Shown here: positions 1 through 24,284 of the stretch, one piece after another
Position numbering within the stretch: the stretch's first letter is position 1
How the letters are laid out: every line of letters begins with the position of its first letter
Program-made: the position numbers and the translations under genes
Notes under the pieces: model-generated
The model's input: the letters and a program-made list of their open reading frames with translations, nothing else
The model's database searches: none
Told to the model about the DNA's origin: nothing
From: Planoprotostelium fungivorum
Lineage: Eukaryota; Evosea; Variosea; Cavosteliida; Cavosteliaceae
Direction of reading: 5' to 3'
Assembly (NCBI GenBank): GCA_003024175.1
Contig: MDYQ01000317.1
Span: 1 to 24,284, forward strand
DNA length: 24,284 nt

Positions 1-1728
1 GTGTCTCCCAACGAAGATAAACTCATCAAATTGAACCCAAAATCCCTCGTACAACTCTCGTCCTACATGGAGGTGAAGTCACCACATCACACGATAAACG
101 TCCATCATCACATGATGACATCACGAACTCTTCTGAAACACTTCAGATAGATTTCACTGACGTCAGACGCGTCGAGAGGGTCGTGTTAGATCCGACCGTC
201 GCTCTAGCAGACAACATGAACCAAAAGATCCGGCAGATCTGCGGAGATTATCTCGCAGAAGTCAGTGTTATTCCCAAGGTGGAATACATCGATCGATGGA
301 ACGACAACAACGTGAGAGTGTCAGATTTGTGTGCCCTCAAGAAAGCCACGGCAAAATTGTCGGGGATATGTAAAGATCCACCAAAGGAGGTGAATGATGA
401 TGTCACGATTACGTGTGATGACGTACCACAGTTGATGGACCTTGCGGCGGCGGCGACGAGGCACATGGTCAACGAGTTTGAAGGGAGCATCGATTCGAAG
501 CCTTTCTTTATCCCGAGAAAAACATTTTCCATCACCGAATTTAAATTGCATCAATCAGATCAAGCGATGATCAAGGCCCGATTGCAGGTGAAGATGAAAA
601 AAAGCCTCATGTGTACTGAGCCGTACGCAGAGGTATCTCAGTATATGTCAGAGTGCGAGGGAGCATTTAGAGATGGACATCAAGACTTTCACTTCTGGAA
701 GTACGAAGAATCAAATCACAGATTGGTGGTTGACGTTGATTCGGGAGGAAGTGGATTCTTTCTTGAGGAGGATCGACTTCTGTCACGATGCCGTGCCCAC
801 AAATTACATCGGTGAGCATAACTACGCACATCAAAATCCATCCATCATCCATCATCACACATCGACATCGACCATATTATCATCACCATCGTCAGATCAT
901 CATCATCATCATCATCAGATCATCATCGCATGTGATGACGATTTGATAGAAAAACAACCCGAAGACATGGCACGAGTCAGAAACAACCTCTCTCTCGTTG
1001 AACAGATCATGAATTCTTTCAACGCGATGCAATTGCAGAGGAGACAGAGAGGTTACACGCTAGACACTTCTCTCGTAGACCATTCAGACAAGGACAACAT
1101 AGCTTCGGGGGTGAGATGATGAAATTCGACACGTGAAGCTGAAGGAGAGAAGGTCAAAATGTTGATCAAAGAGCTGAGAGATCGCATCTATCCGGTGTTA
1201 GATGGTTACGTCGGCTCTTGCAAGTGTATCTTGTACGATCACGTCAACGTGGACGAGTGCGAACACTTGTCCATGGAGAAGATCACAGAGTTGATCGAGG
1301 TGATGATCGCGGTCATGATGGAAGTGATCACGGCTGATCTCCTGCAGTTGACTGCGAAAGAGATGAAGAAGAAAGACGAAAAAGATTCAGCGCAGAGGTG
1401 GACGCGGTACGAACCGCAGTACAACAAGATGATGAAATTGATATCTGACGTACGTTACATCGAGAGGATGAAACTACTCGAAGAAAATCCGGAAAAGGTT
1501 CGTCTTCCACCCTCGATGAATTTTATTCCATTACGAAACGATTGAACGTATATTCAGGTCCACGAGAAAGACATCGTACCCATCACGGGGCTGATCATGA
1601 GCCGCTTCGCTCGATTCGAAAACGAACTCCAAACGGTCATCGAAGTGTGGGGCCGCAACACCACCCCAACAGAAGCACAACCGAATCAAACTCTCCCGCA
1701 GAACCCTGTATCTACCCAACTACCTTGA
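1..1728 (+). CDS. Unrecognised alpha-helical protein, 3' part (5' end outside window)
   Basis: I do not recognise this family. The gene is already open at base 1. Spliced exons that keep one frame are 1-72, 147-587, 631-811, 950-1110, 1150-1497 and 1558-1728, ending in TGA. Introns start GTGAAG, GTGAAG, GTGAGC, GTGAGA and GTTCGT. Two stretches that read through in frame, about 388-429 and 1300-1347, look like further introns of a multiple of three (GTGAAT...CCACAG and GTGATG...CTGCAG). The protein is rich in K, E, D and M and predicted largely helical, with no signal peptide or membrane segment and no catalytic motif I can name. It has segments such as LTLIREEVDSFLRRIDF and IKELRDRIYPVLDGYVGSC, and a polar N/Q/T/P tail. 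The 1111-1149 acceptor is the weakest junction (1152 is equally possible). The stop lies 14 bp from the stop of the convergent glucanase gene. Confidence 0.7.
896..917. repeat. CAT/ATG triplet microsatellite inside an intron
   Basis: About seven tandem CAT units lie within the 138-nt intron 812-949 of the first gene, flanked by looser CATC/ATCATC-rich sequence from about 838 to 927. This intron is far longer than the usual 35-50 nt in the window, so repeat expansion is a plausible cause of its length (inference). Confidence 0.75.
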
Positions 1729-1742
1729 GCGAACTCTCTTTA

Positions 1743-4700
1743 TCATATCATAAATACGGCCAAGAGGGTCAAGCTCAGTGAAACGTACAGTGCGGCGCCA
1801 CTGCCGACTAGATTGGATCCCTCTTCTGTCTTTGTGATCGGATTCGTCGTGCCCTCTTGACTATCAGACCCTCCATAGCTCTGGGGTTCCGACACAGAAG
1901 AGGTCCACGTGTTGACTGTCTTAACCACACGGCCGAGACCGTTGAAATAGCAAGCCGCGTCACCCTGATCGAAACCGAACTGGGCGTAGAAGAGGTTCAT
2001 GGCGTAAGAGGCTTTCTGAGCCGTCGTACACTTTCCGTACGATCCACCGGTGTTCAATTCCAAGCAGTAGAGGGGCTTCGTAGAGCAGAGGTAATTGAGA
2101 ACGTCTCCCACTTCGGTCGCGTTTACGACGGAAGGGTCCTCGGAATTCGTTCGACAGATGGTGTCTTGGTACATGAGATGACAAGGGTGATCATTGGATA
2201 AGGGGGAAGGTTCGACTGCGGGCACGATGGATTTCTTGATCTGACCGATTCCGTCAAAATAGCAAGCACCGTCTCCCTGCTGAACTCCGAATTCGAGGTA
2301 AAACTATCGCACGTCAGGTGATCATCTCGAAGATGAGATAGAATCACCTGATTCATCGCGTAGGAAGTCCTCTGAGCTTCGTTACATCTGTAATACTTCC
2401 CTTGTGCGTTGAGTTCTGTGCAGTAGGAGGGTTTCTGGGAGCAGAGATAAGCGAGAGAATTGCCCAAGATGGTGGCGTTCGATTGATCGACGCGTTCGGA
2501 TGTAGTTCTGCAGGCCAGATCGGCGTACATCAAGTGACAGACGCTGTCAGGGCCCAATGGATCGGGCAGAAGTGACTTCTGTGGGACACCGAGGCCTCCA
2601 AAATCACAGGCTCCCTCTCCTTGTGTGGGTCCGTATTGTGCGTAGAACTGTATCGGTGAATATCGATGAGATTTCATGGCATGCACAGTACCTTATCCAT
2701 GACCCACGAGGCCTGTTGGGCCTGGTTACAGCGGTAGTAGATACCGTTCTTTGAAATTTCCTTGCAGTAGTCTCCGTTCTGAGAACAGATGTAATCCACG
2801 GCGTCACCCAACTTCGTGAGGTTCAGCTTTGTCGTGTTCTCCGTGGGTGTACGACATGACAAATGGGTGAACATGATGTGACAGGAGCTATTTTCGGACG
2901 TGGGAGGTGGTAGGTTACCGAGGGCAGGAATGACACCCAGGCCATCAAAATCGCAGGCTGCATCGCCCAGCTGATCCTTGTGGTCCACGTAATACTGTAC
3001 AAGGGGTCACGTGACCGAAGAAATCTCGGAGAAATCTCACCTGGTTCATGGTGTAAGCCACCTTCTGGGCGGCATTACATCTTCCGTACGTACCATCTCT
3101 GCTCTCGATCTGTCTACAATACAGAGGATTCTGAGAACAGAGGTAATCCAGCGTGGCAGCAACGCGAGTGACGTTGAGATCCTTCGTGTCCTCCGACAAA
3201 GTACGACAAGAGAGTAAGCTGAACATGGCGTGACAGGCTCCATCTTTCGAGAGGGGGTCTGGATTGATCGACGTTACGATGCTGCCCAGACCTTGAAAAT
3301 CGCACGAAATTTCGTCTCCCAATTGCTGTCCGAAGCGTAGGTAAAAGTTATTCATGACGTGGGAAGCCTTCTGAGCTCCGCTGCAGCGCTGAAATTGTCC
3401 GGCGTAACCGATGTCCGTGCACATCTCCGGGTAATTTCCGCAGACGTAATTGATGACGTCACCCACCAGGGTGGCGTTCAGGCGGGAAATATCCTCAGAG
3501 GTGGTGCGGCAGTTGAGGGAGGCGTACATGTTTCGGCACGTATCAGAGACGTAAGTACCGGGCGGTTGGTACGTGTACGTGGAGACAGTGGAAGTGGGAG
3601 GAGCATCTGTCAAAATGAGACGAGCGGAATCAAATGACTCACCCTTGCAGGACCAGTTGGCCAGATTAAATTTAGAGGTTCGGTTGTTGTAGAAGATACC
3701 CCAGGTACCCTCTCTTGAATTGACACCCTTCCATGGTTGATCGAAGGCTTCGAACCAGTAGAAGGGAATCTTCTCGGAAAAGTAGCGGCAGGCGGCCTGC
3801 TTGAGATACCATTCGGAGGTCGTGATGCCGTTCTGAAGATAAAGTGTGAGAATGTCGGACTACAACGAGACATGACGTACCTGACCGTCCCTGCCCGCAT
3901 TCGTGGCCCATCCGGTTTCACCTGTAAAAGTCAGCGGGCGGAACTTCCGAAGAGATTTCGAGGAGGGTCACCGATGATGATGGTCGTGTTGGGGTAAGCT
4001 TGTTGCACTCTCCTAAATTGGGTGACGATGCGATCAGCTGATGCAGTGTCGGTGGGTGATTTCACCGTAGTGCCTTCCCAATAAGGAAAGATCTGGAACG
4101 ATACGTAAACATCTTATAGAAAAGGCAATACAAGATCATCATCATGTGAAGGTGGATGATGCATGGTGATCTCACATTGATGAGAAGTAGATCCGAAACG
4201 GTGGCTAAGACTTTGTTGCCTGTGATGGCTCCGGTCGTATCTGCGTATCCAACGGGAAATGTGAATCCGTTCGCTCTGGTCCAGTTCTGCGACGTATCAC
4301 ATCTCTCCATCGTTAAAGAGCCTCTCACCTTGACGAAAACGATGCGTTCGACTACAGTGGCCAGGGGGAGATCGTTTCGGTGGATGGATTCCGTTCCCAC
4401 GGCAGCTCCAGTGATGATGTCGTTGACTCCGTACTGATCTTCCAACCAAGCCAAGATGTTGAGTTGGATTTGAAGCTCTAAGAGAGGGTTGTTCTGGAAT
4501 CCGATGAAGACCTGTGACGGATGAGTCGATGTGGAATGGACGTCGATCGATGCATCACCTTTAAACCGACGGCCTTGGCAGCTCTGAGAGTGTAATTGCC
4601 TTGATCGCAGTCCAGCATGTTGTAGATGCGAACTTCAGAGGAGACTTTCTTCAAGATGACCAAGTCTTGATAGACCTCTTGATAAGTGGCACATCGCGAC

Positions 4701-4801
4701 GGATTGTCTCTTCTGACCGTATAGTCAAATCCGAGCACCTGTCCAGAAGTGATGCAGACGGAGACTAAGAGGAGAAAGAAGGTGATGATGGTACGTTTCA
4801 T
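1743..4801 (-). CDS. GPI-anchored GH17 beta-1,3-glucanase with five X8/CBM43-like modules
   Basis: Exons (complement): 4801-4559, 4511-4329, 4286-4176, 4092-3972, 3921-3881, 3832-3643, 3606-3041, 2994-2692, 2647-2348 and 2303-1743, about 872 aa. The start is the ATG before a clear signal peptide (MKRTIITFFLLLVSVCITSG). Residues ~22-300 are a glycoside hydrolase family 17 domain. The proposed acid/base is Glu ~122 in GAAVGTES and the nucleophile Glu ~221 in IIIGETGWA; FYWFEAFDQPWK follows. Five cysteine-rich modules then repeat CHxMY...C RT...YLC...YC...RC...ASYAMN...CDFxGLG, matching the six-Cys X8/CBM43 fold known to bind beta-1,3-glucan. A Ser/Thr/Glu linker and a C-terminal hydrophobic tail (ALYVSLSLTLLAVFMI) form a GPI signal. 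Likely role: remodelling of beta-1,3-glucan in a cyst, spore or cell wall, or digestion of prey walls; substrate is inferred from the family. The 42-nt piece 4287-4328 is read as a multiple-of-three intron. Confidence 0.92.
1929..3538 (-). repeat. Five tandem X8/CBM43-like protein modules
   Basis: Module starts (first Cys, complement) are near 3538, 3235, 2883, 2539 and 2183, each about 85 aa plus a 15-25 aa Pro/Ser linker. All keep six cysteines, 'CRT.SE', 'YLC/YVC/YIC', 'RC..AQ.AS..M' and 'CDF/CYF.GLG'. Modules 2, 3 and 4 are each cut by a phase-0 intron at the same place, just after MNQ, MDK and MNQ (introns 2995-3040, 2648-2691, 2304-2347). Modules 1 and 5 have no intron there. The first and last modules read VMNNFYLRFG and AMNLFYAQFG straight through. 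Confidence 0.88.
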
Positions 4802-7113: not shown

Positions 7114-7194
7114 GCGATAGCTGGACTGTAGACAAGGACATCGAAACAGATTCCACCTGTATATCGTCTACTCCGCATGATACTCAGAGCGTCC

Positions 7195-10100
7195 ATGGAT
7201 AAAGAAATCAAGGAGTCGGTTAAGAGTTCAAAGGGGACAACTCTGCACATCACCGAACACAAGATCAGTAAAAAGGTAAGACGACAAAGAGGTTCCGGTT
7301 GTTTTTCGAATGTCCACATGCATGACATAATCTGTAATCTCGAGCGGAGATGTAACAATGTTACAGATAGACCGTATTTATAAAGAACTACCCAATCTCA
7401 AGACGCTTACTCTCTCAAAGTGTTCTCTCCAGGTACATTTCAATGTCATCACCCTTCTACATTCTCACCGACACAGAATGGTGACATCGTCGAACTTCTC
7501 AAATCACTTCCTCATCTCGAGACACTCATCCTGTCCTCCAATCCCATCTCTGCCCTCCCAGATACATTATCATGCCAAGATCTCTCTCACTTCTCCATGA
7601 CCGATGCGGAGCTGACAGACCTCCCCCGCTCCCTCCTTAAACTGCCCCACCTGAAAGAACTTGATCTATCCAACAACAAGATCCTGCAGCCAGATTTCGG
7701 TGGTTCACAAGAGAGGGCACTGAGACATCTGAACTTGAGCCACAATGCCATCCAGTGAGTCTTACCTTCACGTATGGTGTCATGACATCCATCAGCACGA
7801 TATCGTCGGAGGTAGTGGAGGCATTGAAGAATCTGGAACAATTGAATCTGGAGCAAAATCGAATCAAACAAGTACCGGGGTCCATCTGTAAATTGACCAA
7901 ATTGCTCAGCCTCAATCTCTCCCACGTACGTACCGATGCATATTCCATCGCGTTGACTCGTTGTAGAACGATCTGACCGTCCTACCTGAGGCCATCGGCC
8001 AGATGCAGAGTCTGACCGAACTGCTGGTGAAGGGAAACAAATTGACGGCGATTCCGACTTCCGTGGGCCTTCTAAAGGAGCTGAAGACTCTGTCTCTCTA
8101 CCAGAACCAGCTGACCAGCTTACCTGATTCGATTCAATTACTCAAACAGTTGCTCCACATCTCCCTGCAGCACAATCTCATCACCGAACTTCCAGCGGGT
8201 GAGAAGGTTGCAACGATCCAACGTGACGCAGATCTCAGGTCTGGGGCAGATGAAACAGCTCAGCACGTTACAGCTGGATCACAATCATCTGAGGTCACTG
8301 CCGAAGGAATTGGTTGCCCTGGACAACCTCACCTTCTTAGACGTCAGCTACAACCAACTGGAGACGATACCAAAGCCGAACATGAGATCCCTCGGAAAAT
8401 TCATGTTGGACAACAACCGATTGAAAGAATTACCCGACATGTCTGGGCTGCCGAAATTGACCGTCCTATCGTGAGTCGACACGCGGCCGTGGTGACTCTG
8501 AAATGTCGACAGATTACACTTGAATCACATATCCGATCCGGCCTCATTGAAACAGTTGAAGAACAACAAACTGCTGTTCAGGCTGACGCTGAAGAACAAT
8601 CCTCTGCCCCCGATCGCGTTAGAGTTTATTTCGAAATACGGTGAAATGGCATTCGTTCAGAAGGATGGTGACGTGGCGAACAACAGCCCGTGAGTCTCGT
8701 GGCTCGTTGTAGATGGCTGAACGTCGAAGGATGAACAGCATGAGGGCGAGGAGTCTGGGAGAGAGGGGAGGAAGTGAGCTGAAGAACTTGCTGACCAAAA
8801 CGTTGGACACTCTACGATTCGGCAGCTCTGATGTCAGTTTTTTCATCTTCTTCTATATTGAAAGGAGAATCATCGTAACACGAGAAATACTCTGAGATGT
8901 CGACGGAATACAATATATATTATTTTTTACGAAGAAGAAGATAGAAGAGAAGAGATATTTATTTAAGAAAAAATCCAAAATAGAAAACCAAAAATTGAAA
9001 AGAGAACAGAAAAAGAGTGCGGATGCAGAAGTGGGTCTACCCGAGATGGAGACAGACAAGAAGAGCGTAGATTTCAGCAAGATGTCCGCCGATTTCGAAA
9101 CGATGCTGGAAGAATTAGAAGTGACCGAAGAGAAGAAGAAGGAGATGAGAAGCATGCCGGTGGCCGCAAAGATGAAATTGGTCTCGCAGTTCAGAGGAGT
9201 CGAAACTACACCGAAGTCTCCACTGGTGAGTCACGTGATCATACGTCAACCTCCTGTGATATATCCTATGGAACACGTCTTATGTGATATCACACGTGGT
9301 AATGATGATAACATAGATTTCCTCTCCGTCTAGATTCAGGGGAACCAGCAGGACAGCATCGATCGGAGGTTACGATAATCCTAAATCGTTCACCGAATCG
9401 ATTCGGACCGGTAAGGCCACCCCGAACGGTACGTATCGTACGCTCGATGACGTGTGATGACGTCATGTAGATCTGGTCAGTCTGACCGTGGAGCTGAAAT
9501 CCGCATCTCGGCAGTGGGTGTCAGAAATTGTACAGAGAGAAAAAGTGATCGCTCACTTGTTGGATCTCATTCGAGATCAATTCGACAAGTGTGACAAGGG
9601 GTGAGCCCATGTTTTTATCGGTAGATGTTGAGAAGAAGAACAGTAAAGCACCCATCGATTTGTTGTATCAGGCTTTGGTGTGTCTGAGAGCTCTCGTCAA
9701 GCGCAATCAGCTGGGAGAGATGTTGGAGACGGGTGAGATGTCGCAGAGATTTCACGTGAAACTCATCGAAAACAGGCGGAAAAGAAGAATCGGAGGTAAC
9801 CAGTTATCCTGCCAAGATTCTCATCATGGGAATCGATCACCCGAAGATGAAAGTGAGAGCAGAGGTGGTGGGATTGCTCAACAAAATGGGTCAAGTTCAT
9901 TCGTATCACGAGTGAGGGATGAGCATCGACGATGCACGATTGATGAGGTCAGCTCGATGTTGGAAGCCTTCGATGCGTACGGACAGCATCGACAATTGCA
10001 GACGGCGACGAAATTCGGGCCGTTGGTGGAGAATCTGAAGACATCGGCGGAGAAATCAAATCGAGGAAGTGAAACGATCGAGCAGATGCACGAGACATCT

Positions 10101-13100
10101 TTGGTCTTACCTCTAAAGGTGACATCATCGATGTCAGGAGCATCACCTGATGTGATGACAGACGTCATCACTGTCTCTCATCAATCGATTGGTTTCGAAC
10201 GAGGAGAGCATCGAGAATCGATACTATATCCGTGCCGATTTCATCAATCAAGGTCTCCTCAAGGCCATCCAGGTGATGATCCTTCACATCACGTTCGAAC
10301 TCATCACATCGACATCTCATCGACGATTTAATCGACGTACATCGATTTGACGGAGTGCCGCAGGACATCCAGGCGGATTCAGGGGCCAGGGCATCAGAGC
10401 ATTTATCCGTGGAAGTTGATTTCTTCTACGAATCAATGAACGAGGATCAACAAGATCTACCCCTCGTACTGGGTGACCCGTCGATCTACAACGCCTCGTT
10501 GTAGTCTGACACACGTCAGGTCGCAACGAATTCATGAACCTATTGAATGCTCTGGGGCAGAACAATTTCAACATCCATTCGGTCAGCAACAGCAGCTTCA
10601 AGATGAATGCGAGGGCATCCATGGGAAGTACCTCACCTTCTTCACCTCAGATCACAGCGGGGGAGAACTTCATCGTCATGTACAATTACGTCAACATATC
10701 AGGTGATGGTAGAGTCGTCGAGAAAAACTGACGAAATTCCAGCGAAATTTGCGGCGAGGATGAGCTACACGCCAGAGACGATGGGAACCGCCATCATCTC
10801 CAAGATCGCCTCCTCCTTTGGTGTCCCCGGTGCGTTCTACATCTGAGACATCCACGTTGAAACTACAATCGAACACTTCTCATTCTTTACAGAGAGCGAA
10901 CATCAAGAGCTCATCGTCAGCGTTTGCATGATCAACAATCGCCCCAGGGACATCAAATTAGACCCGAAGAAGACTGCGAGAGAGCACGGGTTCGAGGGAG
11001 AGGTATCACCTGATGATTCGATCACGATGAAATCTTACGTTCTACAGGTCAGGGGAGATATCTCTTACAAGCCGTGGAGAATTACGGTGAAGATGAACAA
11101 TTTCCGCCCGGGGAAGCATAACGAGATGGCAACCGTGGCACAAGTGGCCATGGAGCTGTCCGTAACTGTCGACGTTTCGGCGACGTTCAACCACATCGTA
11201 CAGTTCCAGTACCAATCGTACTATGCGCAAGGTGAACCGTACAATCTAGGTGGAGCGTTGTAGACGAGCTGACCGGGGTAGGGAAACAATTACATCAGGG
11301 ATCCCACACGATGGAGGAACATCTGAGGGCCAGCGAGGGATACGGTTTGTATTGGAACGATTCGATATCTGGAAATTCATTCTGGCTGTCTGACACGGAC
11401 AAATTGATCACTTACGCGTTGAACAAGAAGAAGGTGAGGTGGAGAGGAGGGTGAAGGTGACGAAATCTCAGGGAAATCTCGAATTGAGATTGAGACCGTT
11501 GGGAGTGCAGCTGCACTACACGGAAGGTCCTCCCCGTGTCGTTTATTTCGATCAACATCAATTCATTTCGAAGGTGAGAGGAAGAAAAGTCGATGAAAAT
11601 TCACTCGAACAGCTCATCGTACAAGCCGCGGATGCCATGAACATCAACCCGGGTAGACGTCAGAATTTGGGTCTCGTTGTAGATCCAGAGGATCAGAATC
11701 AAGAGAATTTCGCATTCAAAGAACTGACGTGGCTCGAGCCAGGGAGGACCCTAGCTTGGTACCACTTCGACCAGATGGTGATTTATTCCATTTTATTGTT
11801 ACCCCCTCATCTCATCTTCCATTTCATCTGACGAAAACAAACAGGTGAGCTTGAGGATCGAACTGAAGCCCATCGACCTCCCCGTGACCTTTGGAGTATT
11901 CGGTCCAGCCGGGCAAGGGAAGATGAACATCCAATTGGACTTCACCAGTTATCTCCTCGCCAGCGACCTCTACCAAGCCATTCGAGAATCGAAGCCAGCT
12001 CTCCCCGCAGAAATGACAGAGATCGACATGGTCATGTTACTCAAATCAGGAAAAGGTGAACGTGAAAAGTCAGCGAGATTTCGACTGACTGGGTCAGAAA
12101 TGTCGATCTTACCGGAGCAATCGTTGAGAGATCCCAGACTGCCCTACGCCGACGTGTCATCCATAGACATTCGAGTGTCAGCTGCTCCCAGGAAGGCGAG
12201 GGACGCTGGGTCCATTTGGATGGAGCAGAGCTGCTCGGACACTGTTCTGATGGAGAAGGACTCCACTGGGAACATGATACTGGCCTCGGGCACCATCAAC
12301 AAGATCCTCGAACACATCACGAGCGATCATTCAGATGGTGCGTTGTAGATGCAGACAATTCGTGGAGATTTGACGATACGTACAGCAGCCAAGGCAGGGG
12401 AGGTGTTCTACGTGACGTATCCTTCTTTCACCAATGCCAAGGTGGGGTCGCATCGTGATGAAACTGACGCGCTGTAGATCGTTGTACAGAAACTAGCCGA
12501 ACTGTGGCATTGTCCCAACACTTACAAGAAGAACGACGTCTCTTCCCTCCAATCCAGGATATGCAAGGTGATTTATTCTATTTTATTCATTCCATTTCAT
12601 TCATCTCTGACGACATCGTAGGTCATCAAGAGACTGAAGGAGGAACCACCTTCTTCTCCCATGTTTCCCCTGGTGAAAGACATGATCATCTCAGAGAAGA
12701 ACGGTGAACTCGTTCTTACCAACCCTGAAGTCATGAAACAATTCATGACATCTTTATCAAAGAAGGTGAGATCGAAATCTCCGCGAGATTCCGACGAAAT
12801 TTCAGGAACGAAGGGCAGAATCGGCCATCGGAAAGGCCCACAGGAAATCGATATTGATCCCCGATCTGAATCTACAATCGGTCAAACCGAACAGCTCCGT
12901 CAACACACCCAGATCCATTTTATTCAACATCACGAAATTGGGACGATCCTCCACCGCTTCATCGAGAAATCTGACCCCCGCGAAAGATTTGAAACCCGCC
13001 AGGTGACCCATCCGGCCGATTGACGGACCCATCTGACTGATATCAGACCCAGCGAATCCAGGTCACCACCGGTGAGGCCTCCGCGACCTACCTCCCCCCT

Positions 13101-14409
13101 CGTTGGCAAGGAAACGTCTTCTCCCACACCACAAGAAGCTCCATCGACGTCACCACCCAACGAGCCCATCAGAAAGTTCAGCCTGGCCTCCGTTCTGAAC
13201 AAAAAGTCACCACCGGCAGCACCCCTCTCTTCTTCTCCACCGTCCGTGTCTCCAACTTCGTCGGCCGCGAACACACCGAGGAGCCCTTCGAGTAAGAGGG
13301 AAGAAGGACTTCCCGCCAAAGTGGTCAGTTTCAGTCCCACCAATTCTCCAACGATGTCCGAGGACGGTTCTTCTCTCTTCCGGTCCCAATCGGCTGGGAA
13401 ATCGGTGGGAAGGAAGGTCTCCAAGTCTGTGAGTGAAGACAAACCGGTGTCCCTCAAGCCCAAACTCTTCAAGAAGATCAACTTTGGAACAGTCGACCGC
13501 AACACCTTCTTCGAAGTCAACGGAAAGATGGTGAGGGGAATGGTATGACGTGTGATGACGTCATCAGGTGGCACAGCATCTGGCCTACGTGACCTCTTGC
13601 ATGTACGGCGAGCTGAAGACAACCGAGTTCCTCAAATTGTGTTGGGCCCATCCACGAACGCAGCATCTGTCTCCAGGCATCATTGCCATGATCAATCTGT
13701 TCAACGATGTCTCTGCCTGGGTGGCCTCTTGCATTGTTGGAGAAGTCAAACTGAAGAACCGATCGGACATGTTGGTCAACTTGATCAAGATCGCTGGGGT
13801 GAAGAGACATCATGCATTTCTTCTTCTCACGAAGGACAGCAACTCAAAAAGTTGGGATGCTTTCACTTGTTGGTGGCATTCATCACGGGCATCAACAACT
13901 CGGCCGTACTCCGTTTGAAATGGACTCAGAAGAAAGTTCCGGTCCGATTCCGCCAGGTGATGCTCCATCGGATCGTGGAGGATCTCGCATTCTGACGTTC
14001 CCAAAGGAGCTGTTGGCCCTGGAGTCCTTGGTATCCATGGAAGGATCGTACAAAGTGTACCGCAACATGCTGACCAACGTGGAAGGTAACGCAGTACCTT
14101 ACATCGGTGAGTCACGTGATCGATGACGTGGCACGACTGACTCGACCAGGTGTGACTCTGCAAGACCTCACCTTTATGGACGAGAATCCAGAGAAGATTG
14201 GCAACCAGATCAATTTTATGAAGCAGCGAATGGTCTACAACGTCATCACGACCCTCTTGTCCTTCCAAACGAGGCCGAGGTACCCCTTTGGTGAGAGCTC
14301 AGAGGTGGAGAAGTTTTTGGCCACGCTTCCCAGACTGGAATCGAAAGTGTTATATGATGCATCGTTGAAGATCGAGCCTAGGAATGCGGCCAGAGGAGAT
14401 ATCAAATAA
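7195..14409 (+). CDS. LRR - GBD/FH3 - talin-F0/F1-like - REM - RasGEF multidomain protein
   Basis: About 31 exons splice in phase into ~1,860 aa; main exon groups are 7195-8689, 8730-10472, 10520-12337, 12368-12765 and 12806-14409. The start is MDKEIKES at 7195 (an ATG at 7177 is also in frame). Residues ~1-400: leucine-rich repeats (LKELDLSNNKI, LEQLNLEQNRI, LTFLDVSYNQL). Residues ~475-795: formin-type GTPase-binding/FH3 domain (FETMLEELEV, MKVRAEVVGLLNKMG, LINRLVSNEESIENR), but no FH1/FH2. Residues ~800-1290: tandem ubiquitin-fold modules like talin F0/F1 (ELTWLEPGRTLAWYHF, YGLYWNDS...FWL). Residues ~1285-1395: REM/RasGEF_N (GTINKILEHIT, VTYPSFTNA). Then a Ser/Pro-rich linker. Residues ~1600-1858: RasGEF catalytic domain (FNDVSAWVASCI, FITGINNSAVLRLK, LYDASLKIEPRN). 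Expected reaction: GDP release from a Ras/Rap GTPase. The junction 9216-9333 is uncertain. Confidence 0.85.
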
Positions 14410-14860: not shown

Positions 14861-15810
14861 ATGTCCAAAGTTGATGTCAAAGTGGTCCTGTTAGGAAAGC
14901 ACTCTGTGGGTGAGTAGATTTATCATTTTTGATACATTCCTGTTGGTTTTCACCCACCTCTACTTCGATCGAATGTGATGTCTAAACCCATATAGGAAAG
15001 ACATGTCTTGTGGAACGATTTCTTCGCGGTAAATTCAAGGAGAACACAGTGGCCGTGAGTATATTCGTCTATTCGATGTCGAACATCATAACCTCGATGG
15101 TCCTAATCTGTTTCTAATCGATTCCAATAGACTGTCGGTGCTGCCTTTGGAGCCAAAAAGATGGATGTCAACGGAAGGGAAGTCACCATCGGTGTTTGGG
15201 TGAGGGAGAGAGAAGGTAAAGAAGCTAACAGAGACAGGACACGGCTGGCCAAGACCGATATGAGAGCATGAGTCGAATCTACTACCGCTCTGCCAAGGCA
15301 GCTCTCGTGTGTTACGGTCAGTCCACTCATGCATCTTCTCTCCTCTAAATGTCACTCCTCTTCATCTTCTGAACGCATTCAGATCTGACAGACCTGCAAA
15401 GTTTCGAGAAAGTGAAGGTGCGTCTCATCATCGTGAAATCTCATTCATCTCATCATCCCTCAGCTGTGGGTGGACGAACTCCAACAGAACGAAGAAGAAT
15501 GTGCCATCTACATCGTAGGAACAAAGAGTGATCACCATCACCCCCATCATCTCGACTCACTCCATCAGGTGATGGCGTCGACGTCGGTGCCCTGCCCCGT
15601 CGAGACATGCAGGAGTACGCGAAACAGATCAACGGCTTCATGTTCGATACGTCGGCAAAGTCTGGAGACGGAATCGAAGAGATCTTCCAGCACATCGCAG
15701 AGGCGCACGTCAACAAGGAGCAGGCTCCATCAGACAAATCGGGGAGGATCAACCCGGGAGAAGGAAGGAGAACGAAATCGGGTGGCTGCTGTGGAGGCTC
15801 CGCCGAATAA
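14861..15810 (+). CDS. rab24: Rab24-like small GTPase
   Basis: Seven exons: 14861-14909, 14996-15054, 15131-15199, 15238-15316, 15383-15417, 15464-15527 and 15569-15810, all in phase, giving 198 aa (human Rab24 is 203). Motifs in order: P-loop GKHSVGKTC, switch [11 protein letters not shown], switch [22 protein letters not shown], then [18 protein letters not shown], base-binding GTKSD in place of NKxD, and TSAKSG. The GAAF, MSRIYYR, CYDLTD and TKSD signatures are those of Rab24. Rab24 acts in autophagy and late endosome traffic in animals; the role here is inferred. Unlike mammalian Rab24, which has Ser at the catalytic Gln position, this protein keeps Gln. The C-terminus [10 protein letters not shown] has the double Cys five residues from the end, an unusual prenylation site. 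AATAAA at 15806-15811 overlaps the stop. The convergent KMO gene ends 15 bp away. Confidence 0.93.
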
Positions 15811-15825: not shown

Positions 15826-17794
15826 TCATCGGTCGAGCTGCAGGACGGACAAGTGCTTCTCCACTAGATGGGTGGCCTTTTCTAAGTCGATGGAGTCGAT
15901 GTCGTCTTCTTTCACTCCTTCGATGAGTTGGGTGATGACCTTGTCTGGACTTGGATCAGTCGTTGTGCGTGTTCTCTATCTCACCGTTGATGGCACCCCT
16001 GTCTAATGCGTCCTTGTAAGGCATGAGAGAGAAGGAGACCAATTCGTATCGACTCAAGAACCTAAACCCTTCAGTTTCTTCGAAATGATGAATCTTTACC
16101 GTTCCGGGAATTTGTTCCCCAGCAGTCTCTCCACCTTCTTTCTCCACAGGAAAGTGTGATCTCCAACCTTACTTTGTTAGCTCTTCCCTTCTTATCTATT
16201 CTCTTATGTTCTTATCTCATCTTCTCTTCTTATCTTCTTATTCATCTCCTTATCTCCTTATCTTCTCACCTTGTCTCTCATCTCGTAGTGATTCTCCTCT
16301 GCCATCTGAGCGATGGCATCCGTGTTCCTCTTTCTCTCCTCCTGGAACTTCTTGAAGACTTGTCCCCAATCTCCCTTCTCTTCTCTCTTGATTCGATCGA
16401 AGACGAGACAGTCCTCGAAGGCTGCGTTCATTCCCTGCCCGAAGAACGGCACGATCGCATGGGATGCATCACCTGATCACGATCGTCAGATCGCGATCAT
16501 CATGAACGTCTCTCACCCAACAGACAGATGTTTCCGTTGACGGACCACGGCCAACACTTGATGGTGACGAGTGATGAAGTTGGATTGTTGCGGAAATCAT
16601 GAGTGAGAGAAGGAATGAGTGGAACGACATCCGGGAACTTTTCTTCGAAGAACTGGGTGAGGGTGGCATCGTCCGCGCGATCGAGTACGTCGAAACCGTC
16701 AGCGCCATCGAATGGAAAGAAGCAAGTCACGGTGAAGCTTCCGTCCTGTAAGAGTGAGAAGACGATCGTCAGGATGATGATCATGTCCAATGATGATGAT
16801 GGGAGGAGAAAATTATATAGGTTCACCTGGTTGGGAAGGGCGATCATCATAAGGTGACCTCTGGGCCAGATGTGAAGTGAGTTCTTGTCGATGAGATGCT
16901 CTGTCATCTGTCATCATGGTACTTCTCGTGGTGTATTTCACCTCCATTGGGACCGGGTGGAATGTGTAACTCTTTGTAGCCAGTGGGTAAGTATTCTTGA
17001 GAGTAATTGTATCTAGACATGTGCATCATGGTGCCTCTAGCTACGGAATAGGCACCATCGGTGGCGATGATGGTCTGACCTTTCACTACTTTCGTCTCTC
17101 CACTGGGGAGCTGAAGAACGTTCAGAGACGGAGAGAATAAAAGGAAATAAAAGGGTAGACCTGCACGGTGACTTGTTCGTTCTTCAGATCGATGTTGACG
17201 ACTTTGTGTTCGAAGAAGTACTTGACGTTGGGGTTCTTTTCGGAGAGGGTCATCAGCCTGCAGTTGAGATCACCACGTGAGATGGAGTTGATGTAGGATT
17301 CTCCATCTTTCGAATAAGGTTGAAACGTTAATTTTCCTTCTTCATGTCAGTCGTGAGAGTTGGAGAAGAGATCACCGTCGGTAGAGTGCATGGTTCTTCC
17401 CTTCATTGGAATGGCCATCGACATCACCTTTTGGATGGTAAATCGATGTCGAATCATGTGAACAATTCAGGGAACTCACCTCTTCACGAAATCCGACTTT
17501 GGATAGAGCTTCTATTCCTCGCGCTGACAGAGCGAGATTGATGGATCTGTTAGATTTCAATCATCTGGACCACTACGATTATCTCTCAGCTCACCTTCCA
17601 ACAGCTGCATTTGTGTCGTTTCTCATATCGGCTCTTCTCTCGTAAACCTGAAGTGGTTTTAGCTCACGTGAGCACTCGACATTAGATCTCACCTCCACGT
17701 GGAGTCCTTGGTTTGCCAGGTAACATGTCAATAGAGATCCACAAAGTCCTGCACCCAGTACAATCACTGGCTCGTTTGATGTCATTGTTCTCAC
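15826..17794 (-). CDS. KMO: Kynurenine 3-monooxygenase
   Basis: Twelve exons (complement): 17794-17693, 17647-17595, 17546-17480, 17427-17376, 17339-17161, 17110-16942, 16900-16827, 16745-16517, 16472-16270, 16167-16100, 16061-15985 and 15944-15826, giving about 463 aa (human 486). A second start, MTSNEP at 17785, is equally likely. It is an FAD-dependent aromatic hydroxylase: N-terminal dinucleotide fold VIVLGAGLCGSLLTCYLA, the KMO signature GRSINLALSARGIEAL, KLTFQPYSKDG with SISRGDLN, an ATDGAYS motif, and the second FAD motif GDASHAIVPFFGQGMNAAFED. It hydroxylates L-kynurenine using NADPH and O2 in tryptophan breakdown/NAD synthesis. Intron 17340-17375 is 36 nt and holds an in-frame TGA, which is removed by splicing. 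Animal KMO has C-terminal membrane segments; here the tail (DSIDLEKATHLVEKHLSV) is charged with no clear membrane helix. Confidence 0.93.
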
Positions 17795-19806: not shown

Positions 19807-22434
19807 ATGCAAACGTTCATCTTCTTATCTTGCCTGCTACTGGCAGCGCAAGGCTATAACATTCTAGCCAACCCAGATGCTGGAGACTTCACCGTCTTTC
19901 CTCTGGTCAACCTGGGCACTGGCGCTTTCCCTACCTGCATGGCCTTCTCCCCCGATGGCCGTATCTTTATCGGACAGAAGAATGGAATGATCAAGGTCGT
20001 TGACGCCAATGGAAACCTCCAGGCTGGAAACTGGATCGATCTCTCCGACCGAGTCAACAATGCCGGAGACAAGGGACTCACCGCCATCGTCCTCCACCCT
20101 GACTTCCCCAAAACCCCATACCTCTATGCCACATACCCCATCTGGCAGTCTGACTCCCACGACTTGAACAGAGTCACACAGGGTGTCGTTGGAAGATACA
20201 CTGAGAACAACGGTGCTTCTTCCCCCTCTACTGAGCTTCTCATCGTTGGAAGAGTGAGTTTCATTTTAAAGTTTCCAACTCAAACATTCTAGGTCAATGG
20301 AACTGGATTCCCCTCTTGCCACAACTCTCACGTGACCGGAGATCTCGTCTTTGGAACTGATGGAACTCTCTTCGCTTCCGCTGGAGAGGGCTCTCACTGG
20401 GACGCCGTCGACGACGGAACCGACTTCCCCTTCGATCCTTATGATTGGCAATGTGCTCCCTTCTTCGGAGCCATCAACGATATCGGTTCTTTCAGAGCCC
20501 AGCACCTCACCAACATTGGAGGAAAGGTCATCCGTATCGACCCCCTCACCGGAAATGGAATCGGCTCCACCAACTTCCCCAATCTCGTATCCAACCCCTT
20601 CTTCGACAGCCAGAACCCCTCCTCCGCTGCTTCCGTCACATGGTCATATGGACACCGTAACCCATGGAAGCTTCGACTCCGAGCCGACTCCCCCGCCCCC
20701 GGTACTCTCTACATCGCCGAGGTCGGTGCTAAGGACTACGAGGAGATCAACGTCGTGAAGGCATCTGATAGAGGATCCAACTACGGATGGCCTTGCCAGA
20801 CCGCCAACCGCAGACAGCAGCCTTGGTTCACCAACACTGCCACCCCCACCGAGTACTATGTCCCCAGATACCCCACCAACCAGAACACCATCGACATGTG
20901 TGCCGCCCTCCAGCCCAACCTCACCAACACCAAGATCCCCATTCTCTACTACTCTCGCTCTCAGTATGTCTACGGCGAGCAGATCGGTATCATCGGTAAC
21001 TGTGCCTCCGGTCTCTCCTTCTACAACGGTTCGAGCTACCCCTCCGCTTATCGCATGAAGTCTGACGGCAGTCGATCTCTCTTCATCTCCGATTTCGGAA
21101 ACCAGTGGATCAAGGTCATCCGCGTCGATGGAAACGATCAGTTCATCCCTTCTCTCGGTGTGCAAGACTTTTTGGACAACGTAGGAACCATCCTGACGAT
21201 GACCCCTTCCCCCGTGGACGGTGACTTGTACTACATCACCGAAGAGGGAGAGATCAACCGCATCCGTTACACCGCCGGATACGTCGGTGCACCCATCGTT
21301 GTGGCTTCCAGCAACGTCACCACTCTCAACATGAACAACCGTGCTGCCAACTTCCAGTTCTCGTCGGACGGAACGTTCGACCCCGCCTCCCTGCCCATCA
21401 CCTTCTCTTGGACCTTCGGTGACAACTCTTCGTCCACTCTGCCCAACCCCAGCCACACGTACACGTCATCGGGTGTCTTCACCGTTACCCTGACTGTGAC
21501 CAACTCGGCCGGTTACTTTGCAACGCAGTCCTTCAAGGTGGCCACGAACAACGACGCCCCCACCGCCAAGATCGCCGGAGCTCAGTGGTTCCAATTCGAC
21601 AGCGGACAGTCTGTCACCCTGACTGCCACGTTCAACGACGACATCACCCCCGCCAACCAGCTGCAGTGGCAGTGGGAGTACCGCCTGGTGCACAACAACC
21701 ACTACCACCCAGGTGTCCTCACCATCCCCTCTGTCAATTTGGGAACGGGTTCTTCCAGCAGCACCGGAGGACAAGTCTTGTCTTCCCTCATTTCCGTCTA
21801 CGAGAGGAACACGTTGGAGATCTACGCCACGGCTTACGATGCCAGCGGTGTGAGCACCCGCACGAAGGTCATCGGTGTACCCAACCTCCCCAACAATGCC
21901 AACTATGGAAACACTGCCCCCGTCGCAAACTTTACGACCGAGCAGAAGGGAAGCTCCGTCTACTTTGATGGAGGCGTGTCCTTTGACTTTGACATCGATT
22001 ACCTCTACTACTCTTGGATCTGGGGAGATGGAACCAACGGCACTGGTATGGTGAACCACCACACCTACTCCAACAGCGGTACCTACGTCGTGTCCCTCAC
22101 CGTAGTCGATCCCTGGCAAGCAACTTCCACCTACACCCACTCGGTCGACTACGTCGCCCCTGCTGGCGTGACCTCGTCAGGAGCTGCCTCTTCTTCTTCT
22201 CCCTCTTCCACCAACGGAGGAGCCACCGGAGATGTCGCCAGCAGCAGCACACAAGCCACTCAAACCAACGCCAACCCCACGAGCAGCGTGGCCGGAGGCC
22301 AGACGACGCAGGTGGACAATGATCCCCAGGCCACACAGAGCGCCACACCTACTTCCAGCTTTGTCAAGGAGAACTCTGGTTCTGCTGCCCTTCTGGTCGG
22401 TATCGTCCCTTTGGTCGCTGTTTTGTTGATGTAG
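19807..22434 (+). CDS. Secreted GPI-anchored glucose/sorbosone dehydrogenase-fold protein with PKD domains
   Basis: Two exons, 19807-20253 and 20293-22434 (39-nt intron), giving about 862 aa. The N-terminal MQTFIFLSCLLLAAQG is a signal peptide. Residues ~25-490 are the six-bladed propeller of the GSDH (soluble quinoprotein glucose/sorbosone dehydrogenase) family: MAFSPDGRIFIGQKNG, SHVTGDLVFGTDGTLFAS, GHRNPWKLRLR, LYIAEVGAKDYEEINVV and GSNYGWP. Whether it oxidises sugars or binds PQQ cannot be told by eye. Two PKD-type Ig folds follow (TFSWTFGDNSSS...PSHTYTSSGVFTVTLTVT; WIWGDGTNGTG...HHTYSNSGTYVVSLTVV). A Ser/Thr/Gln-rich stalk and a hydrophobic tail (AALLVGIVPLVAVLLM) form a GPI signal. The gene has just one intron and very strong C-ending codon bias, unlike its neighbours, which suggests high expression (inference); recent transfer is the alternative. 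Confidence 0.92.
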
Positions 22435-22628: not shown

Positions 22629-24284
22629 ATGGATGAAGGAGAAATTGGGGCGAGTGATCAGCAGGGTATATTATCGATCCTCTCTTCGCGAATGCACTCC
22701 ACCCCGCACAAGCTTATCGAGATCGATATCTCTAACGATTCGCATCGGAGAATCGTTTGCGTGTCATGCCAGAATCATCGTATATGACGTCTCTCCCTGG
22801 GTCCGCTATACCGCGTGGTGTTTGGCACGCGTGACATCCTAAAGGCCGTAGGGGGCAAAGGCAGATCCATCGTCACCAATCACAGCAGCTGGAGGAGTGA
22901 TGTCATTTCAACTAACTGGACATATGCAGAACGGGATCATATCGAGTTACGACGTGACGAACACCATCTTGAAGATGGTGATGGGAGGGAAAAGCGATAC
23001 GAGAGACGACCGCTCTAGATTCCTCCAATTCACCATTCTCCGTAACACCTGCAAGATCTGGAAAGACCTCGGTGAGTTGTCGCTCTTTCCATCTTCTGAA
23101 ATAATGCAGTGCATACGTTCACCAATCTATTCGGCTACAAGCTTCTAATAAACACGTTCACTGGAGGACCAGAGCCAGTGCGTGTTCTTCTCCCTCTCGT
23201 CGAGATGTCCAAAGACGAGGCAGACGAAGTCTTTAATGCCGCACGTCACCTGCCGGAGATATTCGAAGTGCTCTTGGCCGACGCTCGTGTGGATCCATCA
23301 GTTGATGACAACTTCTGCCTCAGATCGATGTCACAATACGCATCGCCTCAGGTGGTGAAAGCACTTTTGGCCCATCCCAGAGTCGATCCATCGGCGGGCA
23401 ACAATGAGGCCTTCCTCAATGCATCAAAAAGAGATCGCCTGAAGACAGTCAAGCTGCTCTTGTCTGATCCTCGAGTGGATCCATCCGTGGACGATAATAA
23501 GGCCATCCATACGGCTTCACACTACGATCGGACTGAAACCATCCGATTGCTAATGACCCACCCCCGAGTCGATCCATCGGGGCGTGACAACAAGATCATC
23601 AGAAACGCCTCGACCCGTGGCAATCTATCTCTCGTGGAACTGCTCTTCACCGATCCTCGCGTCGATCCATCTGCATGCGATCAAGAGGCCATCAGAACAG
23701 CGGCAGCCTACGGCTACTCATCGGTGGTTCAGCTGCTCTTGACCGACCCTCGTGTGGATCCATCGGTCTGTATCGAACAGATCGACACTCTATCAGTGAT
23801 GAAGCTGCTCCTTCCTCATCCCAGTGTCGATCTGTTGGAATGCCACAACAAGGCCACCAGAGCAGCATCGAGCCTGGACCATTCGATGGTCGTGCAAGAG
23901 TTTGGCTCTTTACATCTATCTTATTCAACATGCCTCGCAGCGGCGGCAAGTATGGGCCATCTATCCGTGGTGGAGCTGCTCTTGACCGATCCTCGCGTCG
24001 ACCCATCTGCAGCAAACAACGAGGCACTCATCGCAGCGTCGATCGGTGGACAATCAGCCATCCTAGACATGCTGATGGCTCATCCTCTTTTGGATCTGGC
24101 AGTGCAAGACAATTATCTCATCCGAAACTTGTGTCTACGCCTACAACAACTGATAGGAAGACCGATGTACGATGATGAGACACCCCACTCATCGGAGGAG
24201 TTCACAAGTGTGAAAGAGGAGGAGCTAGACAGGATCATCCAAAATATAGCCAACGAGATGCTTCTGCTGCTGTTGGCTCATCCA
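22629..24284 (+). CDS. Ankyrin-repeat protein, 3' end beyond window
   Basis: Model: exon 22629-22760 (MDEGEIGASDQQG...RRIVC), intron 22761-22851, exon 22852-23071, intron 23072-23109 (GTGAGT...TGCAG), exon 23110 to the window end, always open. The second junction is firm: phase-1 joining gives KDLVHTFTNLFGYKLLINTF. The first exon and start are less sure; an ATG at 22540 in another frame is an alternative. From residue ~150 on, ankyrin-type repeats of ~33 residues recur as V(V/E)LLLTDPRVDPSAxxNEAIxxA(A/S)xxG. At least eight units are seen, some degenerate (the unit near 23870-23935 lost its core). Ankyrin repeats are protein-binding scaffolds; the partner is unknown. The N-terminal part has no recognised domain, although FLQFTILRNTCKIWKDL slightly recalls an F-box-like helix pair. 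Confidence 0.8.
23240..24085 (+). repeat. Ankyrin repeat array with DNA-level similarity
   Basis: Units recur every ~100 bp, each holding a core such as GATCCTCGCGTCGATCCATC near 23653 and GATCCTCGCGTCGACCCATC near 23988, with variants at about 23283, 23381, 23469, 23564 and 23750. The two named cores differ by a single base, so at least part of the array was duplicated or converted recently. Confidence 0.75.

Follow-up and report, generated by a model that had tools for sequence, protein, structure and literature searches.

A contig of the variosean Planoprotostelium fungivorum (MDYQ01000317.1, assembly GCA_003024175.1) carries, within the 24,284 nucleotides (nt) that were analysed and are called the window here, a run of exons that leads from leucine-rich repeats (LRR) through a formin-type GBD/FH3 unit and a talin-like middle block to a REM-RasGEF pair. 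The question raised by this locus is whether such a stretch represents one gene and what a protein of this composition could do. A preliminary description of the window had regarded it as one gene whose product could read a Rho signal, sense Rap/Ras-GTP through a talin-like module and activate Ras/Rap, with crosstalk or positive feedback as the outcome. The domain order, the single gene, the gene family to which it belongs and four modules in the middle block were computed directly. The product is probably a cytosolic multidomain RasGEF, and we regard Rac/Rho-gated activation of Ras or Rap as its likeliest role.

The gene was reconstructed by a hand-built splice model (Table 1) in which all 33 introns have GT-AG borders and lengths of 32-177 nt (median 43), the exons are in phase, no internal stop occurs and the stop codon lies at 14407-14409. 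The Pfam scan and its residue numbers refer to an earlier model of 33 exons and 1,845 amino acids; the 13 residues fewer in the present model correspond to the 39-nt in-frame intron 11574-11612. Some details of the model are ambiguous. A self-written gene finder favoured the ATG at 7177 over that at 7195, treated 11003-11047 as exonic and placed the start of exon 27 at 12490, whereas the hand model, following the paralogue alignment, has an intron at 11003-11047 and differs at exon 27. For the 177-nt intron at 8833-9009 the acceptor site is also uncertain.

The genome (36.9 Mb in 471 contigs) gave 128 exon-level RasGEF matches. Beyond the window (contig C278), family searches showed GBD, FERM_f0 and RasGEF in this order on one strand in C330 and C11, and FH3 followed by RasGEF in C36, C204 and C21. 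The gene finder, which was trained on the window gene and is circular for it but not for other loci, predicted the order LRR, GBD/FH3, middle block, REM and RasGEF in L002 (C330; 1,614 amino acids), L010 (C204; 1,556 amino acids), L011 (C36) and L012 (C21), and the same order minus the LRR in L001 (C11; 1,188 amino acids). The predictions of L011 and L012 were fused with an upstream gene and were trimmed by eye. The Pfam profiles of LRR, FH3, RasGEF_N and RasGEF scored over their cut-offs in L002, L010, L011 and L012; in L001 RasGEF and RasGEF_N did so, and FH3 reached 21.7 bits (cut-off 27). GBD was over its cut-off of 30.1 bits in L002 and L010 and under it in L001 (29.2), L011 (22.2) and L012 (17.7).

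A seventh member was found through a tree of RasGEF domains alone, which comprised the six members and 12 other RasGEF loci out of the 128 exon-level matches. In this tree the RasGEF of C99 adjoined that of L010 (97/93), and the region upstream of it, predicted in two pieces (L025), contains LRR, a GBD-like stretch, a middle block, an NIW motif and REM before the RasGEF domain. The tree pointed to C99 before the upstream domains were read; the membership of this locus rests on the two-piece prediction. The C99 block matched the profile of the six other blocks with 65.7 bits (E 1e-19; best shuffle 6.0 bits), and none of the other RasGEF proteins appeared in the top eight rows of this test. Its GBD-like part was weak (10.8 bits versus 7.2 for the best shuffle). 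When only six genes were labelled, the tree required two changes and one origin was seen in 0% of the bootstrap trees; with C99 labelled it required one change, and a branch with 79/88 support separated the seven from the remaining loci (in 80% of 200 bootstrap trees; 0 of 500 shuffles were as low). The locus next to the seven, C45 (L026), appears by eye to encode an F-box RasGEF; the block was not seen in it and no profile match was listed. Altogether, at least seven predicted paralogues share the order, the window gene included, five more of them with LRR and one without. The architecture is that of a gene family and not a single oddity.

Two observations concern individual loci. L003 (C309) is 98.85% identical to L002 over the first 4.5 kb, diverges from it inside the first module of the middle block and is without the RasGEF half, which could reflect a haplotype, an assembly break or a broken copy. 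L002 and L010 begin with a first coding exon of 7 nt that gives MG starts (MGAKFS and MGGNLS), which could be myristoylated; a start of this kind is absent from the window model.

The family bears directly on whether two or three separate genes had been merged in the preliminary description. Both doubtful borders do contain introns (8690-8729 and 8833-9009 at the first, 10473-10519 at the second), and the longest of the 33 introns, of 177 nt, sits at one of them. However, the same module order recurs in at least six further genes, and exons of the window gene, L001 or L002 run across module borders: exon 25 of the window gene (12098-12337) is unbroken across the border between the last module of the block and REM, exon 16 of L001 is likewise continuous there, and exon 8 of L002 holds the end of FH3 and the first two modules with no break. 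Moreover, blastp aligned the window protein with L011 from LRR to FH3 in a single alignment (residues 15-785, E 1e-33) and in a second one over the modules and REM (residues 902-1343, E 7e-11). Since at least seven genes share the order and the block profile matches talin F0/F1 four times in tandem, separate genes are very unlikely. Thus, the observation that the stretch from LRR to RasGEF is one gene, with in-phase exons, was confirmed at the level of predicted exons and co-linear paralogues.

The module order that had been read from the sequence, including the formin-type GBD/FH3 unit and the REM-RasGEF pair, was borne out by profile searches, in which LRR_8, Drf_GBD, Drf_FH3, RasGEF_N and RasGEF of the window protein each scored over the curated Pfam cut-off. 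The LRR part was also aligned by blastp with L002 (residues 8-363, E 4e-35) and L011 (29-743, E 1e-33). About 430 residues, LRR included, precede the GBD/FH3 unit, which is not N-terminal in the window protein and is N-terminal in L001. The RasGEF match spans profile residues 2-181 of 181, and the nearest solved relatives of the domain are of the RasGRF1 type (2ije, E 6e-23), Epac2 and SOS1. The INF motif, which we take to be the motif of the RasGEF C-terminal helix, is present in the window protein, L001 and L002. The RasGEF domain of the window protein looks intact and is predicted to have exchange activity.

GBD and FH3 are known from actin-building formins, and the genome was searched with both profiles (E <=0.1; the resulting lists are lower bounds). 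Matches were found on 18 contigs, of which 11 carry, a few kb away at most and in the same orientation, an FH2 match (C27, C15, C313, C142, C471, C107, C232, C392, C43, C251 and C438), six carry RasGEF (C278, C330, C11, C36, C204 and C21) and one holds the partial copy mentioned above (C309). C15 and C313 have equal scores and seem to be copies of each other. The window gene resembles diaphanous-related formins in its GBD and FH3 matches to Pfam, but it differs from them in having neither an FH2 match nor a DAD-like motif; FH2 was not matched in the window protein at E <=1, and none was listed for C278.

The nature of the middle block emerged from the family and not from the window gene alone. 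FERM_f0 scored 11.9 bits in the whole window protein and 18.6 bits in its isolated block, under the cut-off of 26.9. Among the seven full-length proteins it was over the cut-off in three (L001, L002 and L012) and was unreported in L010 and L011 (E <=0.05) and in L025 (E <=0.001); the isolated blocks of L001 and L002 passed with 39.2 and 39.0 bits, in two stretches each. We then compared a profile of six blocks with a profile of eight F0/F1 sequences taken from talins and F0 proteins of this genome. Successive stretches of the six-block profile matched talin F0/F1, with 88.8% for columns 67-134, 95.7% for 146-241, 47.7% for 256-328 and 6.3% for 354-420, while the controls gave 0.1% (reversed blocks, LRR and REM), 0.2% (GBD/FH3) and 0.3% (RasGEF). 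The window block belongs with the others: it matched the profile of its five paralogues with 31.4 bits (E 5e-9; top of 1,000 shuffles 9.7 bits) and, by hhalign, with 94.6% over 315 columns. By contrast, hhalign gave 18.1% for the window block alone against talin and 0.5% for the L001 block alone against that of L002. The support for talin likeness therefore comes from the six-sequence profile, single-block comparisons being weak.

When the modules were scored one at a time with a talin-only profile, seven of 12 exceeded the top of 600 shuffles; L001-A, window A (in which the 45-nt intron 11003-11047 was read as exon) and all D modules (0 of 3) did not. Sequence searches with single blocks found little. 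Using phmmer against PDB sequences, the block gave a single chance match (E 0.99), tblastn with the window block found only itself (six matches, all on C278) and tblastn with the L001 block only C11; the relatives surfaced only via the family models and via the block of L002, which weakly matched C204 and so revealed it. We conclude that the middle block is, on these profiles, four tandem talin F0/F1-like modules of predicted ubiquitin fold (A-D). The talin-like assignment of the preliminary description is supported to that extent, through the paralogues, but there are four modules in tandem and not one F0/F1 pair.

Module D is the weakest of the four and is placed by its order, its match within the family and a poor structure model. 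AlphaFold models of single window pieces, made with no alignment and including in both cases an in-frame intron as residues, had a pLDDT of 53 for module D and 42 for module C, too poor to prove the fold. A Foldseek search with module D gave 455 matches at E <=10 and none at E <=0.001, with a talin head at rank 11 (E 0.27), and VIA-align gave a top Z of 6.4 and no row at Z 8. The structural matches of module D are, as we take it, mostly beta-grasp folds, which is consistent with the assignment and decides nothing.

Whether these modules could sense Rap/Ras-GTP was evaluated at the positions that matter in talin. Talin1 is reported to contact Rap1 via K15, R30 and R35 of F0 and R98 and R118 of F1 (PMC9198492), and mutation of K16 in Dictyostelium TalinB leads to loss of adhesion function (PMC4861126). 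The places of K15 and R35 are K in all eight talin-type or stand-alone F0/F1 domains of the genome. In window modules A-D they are A/S, S/T, R/A and I/S, i.e., basic in one of four at the first place and in none of four at the second. The modules of L001 and L002 are basic at the first place in 3/8 and at the second in 2/8, and both places are basic in 0/12 RasGEF modules of these three genes; all these counts depend on the alignment, into which module A was entered with 14-15 residues of probable intron. Because the contact residues are mostly missing, binding of Rap1 in the talin way by the window modules appears unlikely, whereas binding of other GTPases, or by other surfaces, is possible. 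The preliminary description had gone further and suggested that the protein could act as a feedback amplifier, its modules binding the Rap/Ras-GTP that its own RasGEF produces. The direct binding of Rap1 by talin F0 and F1 (PMC9198492, PMC4861126) speaks for this, as do a weak PI3K_rbd match in the L002 block (19.5 bits, cut-off 22) and, in L011, weak matches to RA_2 (17.8 bits, cut-off 27) and RA (15.6 bits, cut-off 21). Set against the contrast of 8/8 with 0/12 at the contact places, we consider this amplifier improbable; with the Rap1-contact residues mostly absent, sensing in the talin way is not supported and positive feedback is not indicated by the sequence.

In the reading that we prefer, a GTP-loaded Rac/Rho protein would bind the GBD/FH3 unit, as the families of these domains suggest, and would thereby recruit the protein to the cortex or open it there. 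The REM-RasGEF pair would then load Ras or Rap with GTP, an output likewise expected from the families, while the LRR and the module array may serve as docking arms and spacer, docking again being what such families would predict. Several points weigh against this reading. The three proteins scanned contain no DAD-like motif followed by basic residues, so that formin-style DID-DAD autoinhibition is not indicated. The INF motif is missing by eye in L010 and L012, and some members may therefore work without exchange activity. GBD and FH3 are weak in three relatives, L001 being under both Pfam cut-offs and L011 and L012 under that of GBD, and in L025 Pfam reported neither at E 0.001. Finally, the one-gene model and the assigned roles are predictions from the DNA sequence.

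The weakness of GBD would fit a different role for this unit, namely that of an armadillo protein-binding unit for cortical anchoring which has lost the reading of Rho-family GTPases. Among the six scored full-length members, GBD is under the cut-off in three (L001, L011 and L012) and FH3 over it in five; the GBD of the window protein, however, is well over (50.1 versus 30.1 bits), and we hold such a loss to be unlikely. The four modules, for their part, could bind no GTPase and act as a rigid spacer, or else as a FERM-like clamp that keeps REM-RasGEF autoinhibited. They stand four in tandem with no F2/F3 lobes of FERM matched by Pfam in the window protein at E <=1, and the exon from module D into REM is unbroken, with IW present there in all six aligned genes. 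The poor AlphaFold models of the single pieces lend the spacer or clamp no support, and it seems somewhat unlikely, less so than the lost GTPase reading. Rac/Rho-gated exchange is thus the role that we retain as probable.

Table 1. Predicted features of the RasGEF gene and other genes of the window. Genomic coordinates of GBD and FH3 were converted from residue numbers.
Feature	Positions	Strand	Basis
Whole gene, 34 exons, 1,832 amino acids	7195-14409	+	Hand-built splice model; full-length relatives in the same genome
Exons 1-7, short N-terminal stretch and LRR	7195-8689	+	Pfam LRR_8 E 6e-33; blastp
Exon 8, LRR-GBD linker	8730-8832	+	Splice model
Drf_GBD, with introns	9076-9884	+	PF06371 50.1 bits (cut-off 30.1), E 3e-13, residues 456-651
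Drf_FH3, with introns	9908-10460	+	PF06367 52.9 bits (cut-off 27), E 6e-14, residues 660-785
Talin F0-like module A, with introns	10660-11077	+	Six-block profile vs talin F0/F1 88.8%; alignment
Talin F0-like module B, long beta1-beta2 insert, introns	11078-11501	+	95.7%; beats 600/600 shuffles (talin-only profile)
Talin F0-like module C, holds intron 11574-11612	11502-11874	+	47.7%; beats 600/600 shuffles
F0-like module D, 42-nt in-frame intron 12056-12097	11875-12189	+	6.3%; low-confidence model, Z <=6.4
IW motif between modules and REM	12208-12228	+	IW in 6/6 aligned paralogues; NIW also in L025
REM (RasGEF_N), with introns	12283-12642	+	PF00618 30.0 bits (cut-off 28.3), E 6e-7, residues 1269-1342
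Ser/Pro-rich linker	12806-13530	+	S 44, P 31 of 225; alignment
RasGEF catalytic domain and C-terminus, with introns	13568-14409	+	PF00617 143.2 bits, E 1e-41, residues 1611-1786
Helical protein fragment (predicted)	1-1728	+	No Pfam match
X8 domains (three stretches), weak glycosyl hydrolase 17 match	1743-4801	-	E 1.5e-35; E 2e-7
Ras-superfamily small GTPase, first exons doubtful	14861-15810	+	Pfam Ras E 1.5e-31; Rab-like by eye
FAD-dependent monooxygenase	15826-17785	-	FAD_binding_3 E 1e-10 on first half; kynurenine 3-monooxygenase-like by eye
Glucose/sorbosone dehydrogenase, two PKD stretches	19807-22434	+	E 2e-32
DPRVDPS-motif repeats, extending past the window end	22924-24284	+	Ankyrin-like by eye

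The Ser/Pro-rich linker of the window gene exceeds in length those of the two genes aligned alongside. About 450 bp separate the end of the RasGEF gene from the start of the small GTPase gene, which has the same orientation.

GBD/FH3-bearing RasGEFs had been ascribed to Dictyostelium in the preliminary description, correctly so: RasGEF-L and RasGEF-V join GBD/FH3 to RasGEF and were described as the first case of such a domain outside formins (PMC555941). Proteins of this kind have been known since 2005; the unusual features here are the LRR, the array of four modules and the size of the family. RasGEF-L and RasGEF-V are the closest known systems, compared by description only. Their GBD/FH3 is N-terminal (PMC555941), whereas in the window gene LRR lie in front of it, and neither LRR nor a FERM-type block is mentioned for them in the parts available of PMC555941, PMC1273635, PMC8923023 and PMC9197732. 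Slugs of the gefL mutant are described there as poor in phototaxis and thermotaxis (PMC1273635), a phenotype that, by analogy, would fit a role in oriented movement. The Dictyostelium Roco RasGEF GbpC likewise has LRR and RasGEF in one protein (PMC1273635), but the window protein matched none of the kinase, Roc, cNMP-binding and DEP domains at E <=1. The talin head shares with the window protein the F0/F1 (FERM_f0) likeness, seen when the profile of the four tandem modules is compared with talin F0/F1 of this genome; it differs in that the window protein has no F2/F3 lobes or rod by Pfam and mostly lacks the Rap1-contact residues. Within the same genome, L005 pairs its LRR with a FERM_f0 module (36.9 bits) and has a PP2C phosphatase in place of GBD/FH3-RasGEF; this LRR-PP2C-FERM_f0 gene lies at 355-3787 of C421 in reverse complement (PP2C E 1e-43, FERM_f0 over the cut-off). 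In the open-licence literature we found no description of the LRR-GBD/FH3-F0-RasGEF architecture and no paper on a Protostelium RasGEF.

Models of the cell cortex usually assign the crosstalk from Rac/Rho to Ras/Rap to several proteins. The genes described here may, tentatively, constitute a family of at least seven Rho-to-Ras relays that has so far gone undescribed, with a formin GTPase sensor, LRR and a rod of four F0-like modules built into a RasGEF, so that one molecule would both read and write several small GTPases, and RasGEF-L and RasGEF-V could be relatives with an overlooked F0-like block. A Rho-type sensor fused to a Ras activator would make the direction and the order of this link testable in a single molecule. 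The F0-like array would be a case of talin-type ubiquitin folds employed well outside adhesion proteins, and the profile of the block allows other amoebozoan RasGEFs to be probed in their middle parts.

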